From assembly GCF_008124605.1 (NCBI RefSeq), contig NZ_VRYN01000003.1, positions 62,001-126,000 of the forward strand: 64,000 bases of DNA, written 5' to 3'. Positions 17,074-19,867 of the stretch are shown here, piece after piece (the stretch's first letter is position 1; every line of letters starts with the position of its first letter). This DNA comes from Halobacterium salinarum DSM 3754. GTDB lineage: Archaea; Halobacteriota; Halobacteria; Halobacteriales; Halobacteriaceae. The position numbers and the translations under genes are program-made. Under the pieces are notes generated by a model. The model searched no databases. It was not told the DNA's origin and worked only from the letters and a program-made list of their open reading frames with translations.

Positions 17074-17154
17074 ACTCCCTTGGTCCGCCGCTGGCCTCAA
17101 AACGGTTTCTCAATCCGGCCGCTGGTCGCGGTCCCCCACCCCAAGTCTCAAGTG

Positions 17155-17355
17155 TTAGTCGGCGAAATCCCAGGCCGGATTGAACAGGACCGCTCGGTCG
17201 ACAGTCCGTTCCCAGTAGCGGTCGGGGCGCGACTGTGCGGCCGGCTCGCCGGCCGTGGGCGGCACGCGATCCGACTCGGCCGGGGTCAAGCGAGTGGCTC
17301 GGGCTGGGACGGGCGAGGAGCACGTCGTGTTGTCGGTGGTGCCGTAACTGCCCAC
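17155..17355 (-). CDS. Possible small protein downstream of tRNA-Ser
   Basis: A GTG-initiated frame of 66 codons starts 15 bases after the tRNA-Ser gene on the same strand and ends RPDRYWERTVDRAVLFNPAWDFAD-stop with a protein-like, acidic/aromatic tail. The first half is Thr/Pro/Ala-rich and less convincing. No family is recognised. It could also be chance coding potential in a 297-base gap. Confidence 0.3.
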   Translation of the reverse strand: MGSYGTTDNTTCSSPVPARATRLTPAESDRVPPTAGEPAAQSRPDRYWERTVDRAVLFNPAWDFAD

Positions 17356-17370
17356 GAAAGACGTCGAGAA

Positions 17371-17456
17371 GCGGTGAGGCTGGGATTCGAACCCAGGAGG
17401 CGTGACGCCACCGGTTTTCAAGACCGGCGCAATAGGCCGCTCTGCCACCTCACCGC
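17371..17456 (-). tRNA. tRNA-Ser (anticodon TGA)
   Basis: A type II tRNA with a long variable arm. The acceptor stem pairs GCGGTGA with TCACCGC, the anticodon arm is CCGGT-CTTGAAA-ACCGG, and the T arm is CTGGG-TTCGAAT-CCCAG. The anticodon TGA reads UCA serine codons. Length is 86 bases, without intron or encoded CCA. Confidence 0.96.
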
Positions 17457-17522
17457 ACACGACGCGATTGAACGGGGGGAGGGTTGAAACTGTCGTTGTC
17501 CGGCGAGCCCGGGGTCGGCTCT

Positions 17523-17547
17523 CCCACCCACCCCGTATTTCGAGTGT
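17523..17547 (-). repeat. ORB-like repeat copy A with G-string
   Basis: Read on the minus strand it begins ACACTCGAAATACGGGG and runs into TGGGTGGG. The first 21 bases differ from copy C at 18982 by a single base. The G-tract points away from the orc gene. Confidence 0.75.
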
Positions 17548-17562
17548 TTTGCGGTGCGGACA

Positions 17563-17606
17563 CCCCACCCACCCCCTCCCCCACCCCGATCTGCAAATGT
17601 TCGACT
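17563..17606 (-). repeat. Degenerate ORB-like repeat copy B with extended G-tracts
   Basis: On the minus strand GTCGAACATTTGCAGATCGG is followed by GGTGGGGGAGGGGG and TGGGTGGGG. The CATT..ATCNGGGG spacing resembles copy D with substitutions and a small insertion. It has the same orientation as copy A. Confidence 0.5.
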
Positions 17607-17764
17607 GTGTGCTCCGGGGGCCACCCCCCAACGGTGGCAGGGATCGGTGACACCGTGCCATCGGTTTGCACTGCCGCGGTCCGAGTCGTGACAAAACACC
17701 CGAAACAGCCGAAACACGAGAACCAAAGTGTTATGAAACGGTGGGTAGAAACTCTCGGCAAGCG

Positions 17765-18958
17765 ATGAAGACGCCGTTCCGGGACCGCGTCGAGCTGTTC
17801 GCCAACAAGGATGTCCTCAAGGACCACTACGAGCCCGAGGAGATCCGCGAACGCGACGAGGAGATCGACCAGTACGCCAACGCCCTCCAGGATGTCGTCG
17901 ACGGCTGGGAGCCTGATAACGTCTTCGTCTACGGGAAAACCGGCGTCGGGAAAACCGCGGTCACGCGGTACATGATGGACGCCCTGGAGTACGAGGCCGA
18001 CGACCGGGACGGCGTCGACAGCGTCACCAGCGTCGAAGTGAACTGCCACCACCATCCGTCGTCGTATCAGGCAGCGATCGCACTCGTGAACGAGCTGCGT
18101 GGGGATACCGACAGTGACCCACTCACAACCGGGCTGTCCACCTCCGACGTGCTGAACGCGCTGTTCGACGAGATCGAAGCCCGCGAGGGCACCGTGTTGA
18201 TCGTGCTCGACGAGATCGACAACCTCGACGACGACGACATGCTGTTGTACCAGCTCCCGCGCGCGAAGACCAACGGCAACATCGAGGACTCACAGGTCGC
18301 CGTCGTCGGCATCTCCAACGATTACACGTTCCGCAACGACCTCTCGCCGAAAGTCCAGGACACGCTCTGTGAGCGGGAGATCAAGTTCCCGCCCTACGAC
18401 GCCAACGAGTTGGTCACGATCCTCGACGACCGCGCCGAGCGTGCGCTCAGCAGCGGCGTGCTCACGGGCGGCGTGATCCCGCAGTGCGCGGCGCTTGCGG
18501 CCCGGGACCGGGGGAGTGCACGCCAGGCCATCGACCTGCTCCGCGAGTCGGTGAACGTGGCCATCGAGGACGAACGCGAGACGGTCACCGAGGACGACGT
18601 CGAGACGGCAGTTCGGCGCGTGGAGCGGGGTCGCATCAAGGACTCGATCAAGGACCTGACGACCCACGGGCAGTACGTTCTGTTGGCGGTGACACAGACC
18701 GCGATCGCGGACGACACCCCAGTGCGTGCCAAGGAGCTGTACGAGGTGTACGCCGACATCGCCGCGGAGTACGCCTCCGACCCGCTCAGTCAGCGCAGCG
18801 TTCACGATCACCTCAACGACCTGTCGATGTTGGGGTTCCTGCGCCAGCACGACCGCAACTACGGGCGCGGCGGCGGCCAGTTCTTCGAGTACGAGTTGGA
18901 CGTCGACGCCACGATGGTCCAGGAGGCCATCGCGGACGCCGACGACGCGACCGTGTAG
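17765..18958 (+). CDS. cdc6: Orc1/Cdc6 replication initiator
   Basis: A 397-residue AAA+ initiator. Walker A GKTGVGKTA is at 57-65, Walker B IVLDEID around 146-152, and sensor-like GISNDYTFRNDLSPKV follows. The arginine-finger region AARDRGSARQAIDLL comes next, with a winged-helix domain after about residue 300 (SQRSVHDHLNDLSMLGFL). It would bind origin recognition boxes and load the MCM helicase. The ATG at 17765 gives the family N-terminus FRDRVELFANKDVL, preceded by TTATGAAA about 31 bases upstream. The gene is flanked by paired inverted G-string repeats. Haloarchaea carry several paralogues, and which one this is cannot be told here. Confidence 0.95.
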   Translation: MKTPFRDRVELFANKDVLKDHYEPEEIRERDEEIDQYANALQDVVDGWEPDNVFVYGKTGVGKTAVTRYMMDALEYEADDRDGVDSVTSVEVNCHHHPSSYQAAIALVNELRGDTDSDPLTTGLSTSDVLNALFDEIEAREGTVLIVLDEIDNLDDDDMLLYQLPRAKTNGNIEDSQVAVVGISNDYTFRNDLSPKVQDTLCEREIKFPPYDANELVTILDDRAERALSSGVLTGGVIPQCAALAARDRGSARQAIDLLRESVNVAIEDERETVTEDDVETAVRRVERGRIKDSIKDLTTHGQYVLLAVTQTAIADDTPVRAKELYEVYADIAAEYASDPLSQRSVHDHLNDLSMLGFLRQHDRNYGRGGGQFFEYELDVDATMVQEAIADADDATV

Positions 18959-18981
18959 ACCCCGGGCTGTGCTCTGGAGAA

Positions 18982-19006
18982 ACACTCGAAATCCGGGGTG
19001 GGGGTG
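18982..19006 (+). repeat. ORB-like repeat copy C with G-string
   Basis: It begins ACACTCGAAATCCGGGG and continues TGGGGGTG. It lies 23 bases after the orc stop, in the opposite orientation to copies A and B, with the G-tract pointing away from the gene. Confidence 0.75.
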
Positions 19007-19080
19007 TTCGCCCGCACCGTGTCACTTGCTGTCATCCTGCAGCAGTCCCCACACCCCACCCCACCCAATCAGCACGCCCA

Positions 19081-19105
19081 ACATTCGAAATCCGGGGTGG
19101 GGGGG
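19081..19105 (+). repeat. ORB-like repeat copy D with G-string
   Basis: It begins ACATTCGAAATCCGGGG and ends in TGGGGGGG, the same orientation as copy C, 99 bases downstream. The G-tract abuts the stop codon of the convergent GT-A-like gene at 19106. Confidence 0.75.
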
Positions 19106-19867
19106 CTACGTTCGGCGCAGCGCCGGCAGCCCGGACTCGTCAGCCGCCACCCGAAGCCCGAGTGATTCGATGATCGCGGTGGTGTGGGCGGGCACCAGCC
19201 GCCCCGACGCGTGGCGCGCCCGGATCGCGGCCACCAGTGTCTGCAGCGCTCTTGCGGACCCGATGCGTCGCCGCCCCGGGAGGAAGTCCACGTCGTAGCC
19301 GGCGTCGACGGCGCGCGCGTTCACGTTCTCGACGGCCGGCGCTTCCAGGGCGCGCTTGAAGTCCACGGGCTCGGTGAATCCCGCGAAGTACACGTCACCG
19401 CCGTCCGCCGGCCCGAGCACGACCTCGCTGCGGCGGAGCTTCATCGTCGCGCTGTCGATGTCCTTCCGGAGCAGCGTCGGCGCGTCCGGCTCGATCACGG
19501 CAACCGACTGCGCGCCGCCGTTCTCCAGGAGGTGTGTCACCGTGTTGCCGACCCGCGCCGACCGCGACGATCCGACTTGCACTTCCACGCGCGCGGCTTC
19601 ATGCTGGTCGCCGTCCAGGGCGTCTTCGACGAGCGCGCGCACCTCCGATTCGGCGTCGCCGTCGGGCACCGCGTCGGGCAGCTGGTCGTCGGGGCGGTAG
19701 TTCACGAGCAACTCGCTGTTGCTCTCCGCGACCGCGTGCAGGATGTCGGCCACCATCGCCTCGTAGAGGCGGGTGGCCTCACTGGGCGAGAGTGGCGTTT
19801 CGTCGGGCAGCGTGGGCAACACCAGGCCATCACGTGGCGGGTCAACCAGTACGGCGGCGACAGGCAT
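19106..19867 (-). CDS. GT-A-fold protein resembling DUF2064 glycosyltransferases
   Basis: A 253-residue protein starting MPVAAVLVDPPRDGLVLPTL. The segment VAVIEPDAPTLL followed by SEVVLGPADGGDVYFAGF resembles the GSDCP ... VVLGPAxDGGYYLxG core of DUF2064 (COG3222) nucleotidyl/glycosyl transferase-fold proteins. The usual metal-binding DxD-like motif is altered here (EPDAP). It is convergent with orc1/cdc6; genes of this kind are, from memory, often found beside haloarchaeal origins. The reaction is unknown. The ATG at 19867 is the natural N-terminus; a longer frame upstream is not protein-like. Confidence 0.65.
   Translation of the reverse strand: MPVAAVLVDPPRDGLVLPTLPDETPLSPSEATRLYEAMVADILHAVAESNSELLVNYRPDDQLPDAVPDGDAESEVRALVEDALDGDQHEAARVEVQVGSSRSARVGNTVTHLLENGGAQSVAVIEPDAPTLLRKDIDSATMKLRRSEVVLGPADGGDVYFAGFTEPVDFKRALEAPAVENVNARAVDAGYDVDFLPGRRRIGSARALQTLVAAIRARHASGRLVPAHTTAIIESLGLRVAADESGLPALRRT

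Follow-up and report, generated by a model that had tools for sequence, protein, structure and literature searches.

The DNA analyzed here (the window) is a 64,000-nucleotide stretch of the Halobacterium salinarum DSM 3754 genome, positions 62001-126000 of contig C3 in a 2.36-Mb assembly of 40 contigs. As an earlier note on this DNA had claimed, it carries an Orc1/Cdc6-family initiator gene; the gene lies at 17765-18958 on the plus strand and is identified here as orc8. The 397-aa product has the AAA+ ATPase, lid and C-terminal winged-helix domains of these initiators, all above curated cut-offs: it scores 464 bits against TIGR02928 (cut-off, 181) and contains the Pfam domains Cdc6_lid and Cdc6_C (winged helix). 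The closest solved structures are Sulfolobus Cdc6-1 (2qby_A, E 5e-58) and an Aeropyrum entry (2v1u, E 1e-55). The four primers with which orc8 was deleted in Halobacterium NRC-1, whose sequences were taken from PMC1906834, match the locus at the expected positions with 0, 0, 1 and 1 mismatches, and the gene is therefore the ortholog of NRC-1 orc8. The NRC-1 orc6 and orc7 primers match other loci of the same genome. To the left lies a minus-strand tRNA-Ser (tga) gene (17371-17454, found by ARAGORN) and to the right a minus-strand gene for a cofC/DUF2064-like nucleotidyltransferase (19106-19867; DUF2064, with a weak CofC match below the cut-off).

Two ORB-like boxes lie on each side of orc8, and the G-strings of all four lead away from the gene; the earlier note had read both the presence of repeats on the two sides and their outward direction correctly. 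The upstream pair is on the minus strand. Its outer member is a class A box (AACACTCGAAATACGGGGTGGGTGGG, 17523-17552, 32.9 bits) with a 20-base core matched without mismatch and a leftward G-string, and its inner member is a class B box (AACATTTGCAGATCGGGGTGGGGGAG, 17576-17605, 35.0 bits). Both downstream boxes are of class A, on the plus strand, with rightward G-strings (18977-19006, 37.0 bits; 19076-19105, 33.9 bits). The second ends beside the stop codon of the cofC-like gene, and the copies at 18981-19004 and 19080-19103 are 96% identical to each other. Class A is defined as AACACTCGAAAnnCGGGG, with a TCGAAA core, and class B as AACACTTGCAAAnCGGGG or ACATTTGCAGATCGGGG, with a TTGCAAA core. 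The scoring matrix was built solely from the orc8 loci of other species, and against the 32.9-37.0 bits of the four main boxes the highest value reached in 20 simulated contigs of 204 kb was 17.1. The consensus CACTYGMARNNNGGGGTGGG, with up to two mismatches allowed, occurs 5 times in the window where 0.09 occurrences are expected, each time near orc8. Repeats of this kind adjoining an orc gene are the mark of orc-adjacent origins in haloarchaea. A further, weaker box that had not been noted before lies past the tRNA-Ser gene (GACTAACACTTGAGACTTGGGGTGGGG, 17131-17160, minus strand, 24.2 bits). The same sequence is found in G003 (L030:173), and nothing above 11 bits was found in G006 and G010. 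This box comes directly after the stop of what may be a short reading frame on the minus strand.

All 11 Halobacterium genomes that bear orc8 carry the boxes, and the Orc8 protein is 89-94% identical across the genus. The upstream order, outer A and inner B, is kept in each of the 11. The inner copy had been taken for a degenerate repeat; it is indeed a repeat, and its supposed degeneracy is the conserved class B sequence. The downstream boxes could be read in 10 of the 11 genomes, the remaining contig stopping inside the gene. Their usual order is A, B and then A or B; the exceptions are G001, with a TTGAAA first box, G010, with a TTGAAA second box, and the window, with two A boxes only. The spacing between boxes is not conserved among the orc8-bearing genomes. 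In Halarchaeum, orc8 lies at a different location, near a tRNA-Leu gene, and has mostly B boxes on both flanks.

Two sister species, G007 and G012, lack orc8. In both, only a few tens of bases separate the tRNA-Ser gene and its conserved flank (GGTTGAAACTGTCGTTGTCCGG) from the cofC-like gene, and the sequence equivalent to approximately 17504-19105 is entirely absent. These empty sites define the extent of the orc8-ORB cassette (17504-19105), which is a discrete module missing as a whole in these species. An exact box search of both whole genomes gave no match, and at one mismatch there were few, scattered matches; those in G007 included clustered ones on contig 2 whose core, TTACAAT, is different. 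This cluster (G007:C2:88664-91849) consists of AACACTTACAATNNGGGG boxes and probably represents the ORBs of a different orc gene on a second replicon. A thiI tree nests the orc8-less pair among orc8-bearing species, the support being moderate (86/87); a single loss is therefore the more probable history, and a recent gain of the cassette is less likely. Since the sister species lack the exact cassette, they provide a natural experiment, in which the boxes, a remote satellite box and, in part, the replication skew have gone with the gene.

Within the H. salinarum genome the boxes are specific to orc8. The sites that match a loose 18-base pattern are the four boxes at orc8, a single one upstream of thiI and another in a trmO-like coding sequence; all other matches needed a mismatch. 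The ten further stretches around other orc genes of this genome contained neither box class above 11 bits. Thus the search of all orc loci that the earlier note had proposed found the boxes at orc8 only, and exact matches away from orc8 are too few for a repeat scattered over many orc-less sites, which that note had named as grounds for abandoning its reading. The trmO-like match (C3:10006) was rejected as a satellite, as it lies inside coding sequence and the flanks are conserved at the orthologous sites. Other single matches (L072/L074 and L075-L078) were left out because their flanks are as conserved as the box, as in coding DNA. We also considered whether the class B boxes might be the sites of another Orc protein. 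This was rejected: neither class occurs at any other orc locus and the thiI box is a mixture of A and B, so that a single protein for both classes is simpler. One other orc locus (L050, G000:C20, 8204-8640) has a box family of its own, TTTACACTCGACACCCGGGGTGTG, with five copies in the same orientation and a 33-nt inverted partner.

The inverted boxes bracket the orc8 gene, and the sole A+T-rich stretch lies upstream, where it overlaps the promoter. This stretch (17689-17745, plus strand) contains GAAAC repeats and a TATA-like element; it is taken as the orc8 promoter and is a candidate unwinding element. The 50 bp from 17689 are 58% A+T against a window mean of 31.5% (top 1.8% of 50-mers), which agrees with the A-richer upstream region noticed earlier at 17692-17740. 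A similar GAAAC..GAACC..TATTAT stretch, judged by eye, lies upstream of orc8 in relatives. The earlier note had gone further and proposed an origin with strand opening possible at either flank. Boxes of comparable strength on both sides would suit such an arrangement. However, the downstream flank reaches at most 40% A+T and has no A+T-rich stretch, and in Haloarcula hispanica, a relative in which it was tested, the downstream ORB array of oriC2 lacks origin (ARS) activity and acts as a repressor of the origin, probably through titration (PMC3936714). Unwinding at the downstream flank is accordingly not supported, and we regard a two-sided origin as very improbable.

The layout in Haloarcula hispanica, oriC2-cdc6E with oriC2D, likewise has the origin upstream and an ORB array downstream of the initiator gene, although its 11 downstream ORBs in 722 bp compare with two here and usually three in other Halobacterium. 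A downstream array of the oriC2D kind is thus present at orc8, with a putative role in negative control. By analogy with Haloarcula oriC2, titration of Orc8 is the more likely function of the downstream boxes.

Cumulative GC skew provided a record of replication. In the H. salinarum genome it peaks at 724 kb of contig C1, and orc7 lies at 725 kb; this coincidence with orc7/oriC1 fixes the sign of an origin for this genome. A peak of cumulative skew like that at oriC1 also occurs close to orc8. On C3, with 60- and 75-kb arms, the contrast between the left and right sides of orc8 exceeds that of every C1 position outside the oriC1 region, although positions close together are not independent. 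When the arms were set to 50 kb, the largest switch inside 100 kb was located about 0.1-0.5 kb from orc8 in G005, G008 and G006, about 7 kb away in H. salinarum and 14 kb away in G004. Gene orientation as the mere cause was rejected by the third-codon-position skew on each gene strand: that of plus- and minus-strand genes shifts in the oriC1 direction in all five orc8-bearing species compared, which are not independent of one another, and the minus-strand shift in G008 is nearly zero. At the empty sites the third-position skew is approximately zero in G012 and intermediate in G007, where it overlaps the weakest orc8-bearing species. Strand asymmetry centered at orc8 is therefore found in 5/5 species, weaker than at oriC1: the step is about a third to 40% of the oriC1 step in H. 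salinarum and smaller in relatives. The switch at orc8, together with its smaller size at empty sites, supports real origin use over evolutionary time. GC skew is a long-term record and not a measure of present firing.

Published work on the corresponding locus is divided. Berquist 2007 (PMC1906834) reported that NRC-1 orc8 can be deleted and that its region failed an autonomous-replication test. In Wu et al. 2012 (PMC3528665), ORBs are listed in both intergenic regions of orc8, and the NRC-1 orc8 origin is described as active by marker frequency despite the failed ARS test. Two later reviews recognize only orc7 and orc10 as active chromosomal origins, or give the number of origins as two. Given this conflict, firing in growing cells is unproven. 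The locus might be a dormant or relic origin, in which past initiation left the skew and which now fires only when the primary origins fail. The negative ARS test, the dispensability of orc8 (PMC1906834) and the fact that skew records the long term rather than current firing are all compatible with this possibility, and a precedent is given by a dormant origin of Haloferax mediterranei that fires once the primary origins are deleted (PMC4595724). We nevertheless consider dormancy somewhat doubtful, because the boxes and the protein (89-94% identity) have been kept across the genus and because the marker-frequency result stated by Wu et al. (PMC3528665) speaks for activity. The A-rich stretch also counts against an origin reading in general: it covers little sequence, and its A+T content does not exceed that of a promoter. 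The region between the arms of oriC1 has 46% A+T over 190 bp.

The explanation that we favor is that the cassette is probably a self-contained secondary chromosomal origin. Orc8 would bind both inverted arrays of boxes around its own gene. The strands would most likely open, and MCM be loaded, beside the upstream array, at the A-rich promoter stretch. The downstream array is most likely not a site of melting; it would hold Orc8 and so restrain initiation by titration. A solitary box of the Orc8 type in the thiI promoter would also belong to the binding network.

That solitary box is found upstream of thiI in all 11 orc8-bearing Halobacterium genomes, where its 5' end lies 48-52 bp before the start codon; a conserved CGATAGG promoter motif is 11-15 bp from that end. 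It combines features of classes A and B. Ten genomes have the same 18-base core and G004 has a variant of it, while identity in the 60-nt flanks is only 44-49%. In H. salinarum it lies between mat and thiI (G000:C3:131910-131939), about 5.9 kb to the right of the window. The box is absent from both orc8-less species, which retain the CGATAGG motif, and from Halarchaeum. Because the loss of the box and the loss of the gene form one event on the tree, the linkage between the thiI box and orc8 rests on a single loss. These data could also be read to mean that Orc8 now acts mainly as a DNA-binding regulator without a role in replication, the flanking boxes being autoregulatory and the thiI box serving thiI. 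The persistence of the thiI box (11/11, with identical cores in 10), its poorly conserved flanks and its loss together with orc8 would fit this, and in Sulfolobales an Orc1 paralog, Orc1-2, regulates transcription (PMC9738581). However, the skew switch at orc8 requires replication rather than transcription and the inner upstream box lies about 150 bp from the orc8 promoter, so a purely regulatory Orc8 appears unlikely.

ORBs on both flanks of orc8 appear in the list of Wu et al. 2012, so the central finding is not new. The orc8 locus of NRC-1 and H. salinarum R1 holds the same gene, as the primers match, with ORBs in both flanking intergenic regions (PMC3528665). In the published descriptions, as far as their text was available, the box classes, the empty site, the thiI satellite and the skew test were not found. 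What is new beyond the published layout is the discrete module, the replication footprint and boxes shared with the promoter of a distant gene. Through the cassette-less sister species, the disputed use of the orc8 origin and regulation by Orc8 become directly testable.

Comparison with other origins of these organisms places the orc8 locus more precisely. At oriC1 (orc7) of the same genome, the ORBs are also inverted with outward G-strings. However, the 31-bp ORBs of oriC1 bracket 190 bp and not the gene, whereas the orc8 boxes bracket the gene; the oriC1 ORBs also have one extra base between CGAAA and GGGG, and the skew at oriC1 is several times stronger. The orc10 origin of NRC-1 has ORBs on both sides too, according to PMC3528665, and orc10 is reported to be essential, unlike the dispensable NRC-1 orc8. 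Two NRC-1 orc10 knock-out primers had no match in the H. salinarum DSM 3754 genome at up to three mismatches, and the orc10 locus may be missing or divergent, or may fall in a gap of the assembly.

Orc8-type boxes are also found beyond thiI. Three species have a second solitary box, located downstream of a hydantoinase-like gene (G003:C1:2812259, G004:C1:883463 and G006:C1:1199535). Judged by sequence, the satellites may be remote titration or regulatory sites. We tentatively suggest, at a little less than even confidence, that Orc8 has a binding network beyond the origin, in which the thiI box (11/11) and the second satellite either tie the initiator to a tRNA-modification gene or act as datA-like remote titration sites, and which decays when orc8 is lost. 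In the literature searched, we found no description in archaea of an initiator box that is remote from its origin and lies at a conserved promoter, as the one that precedes thiI does in these genomes.
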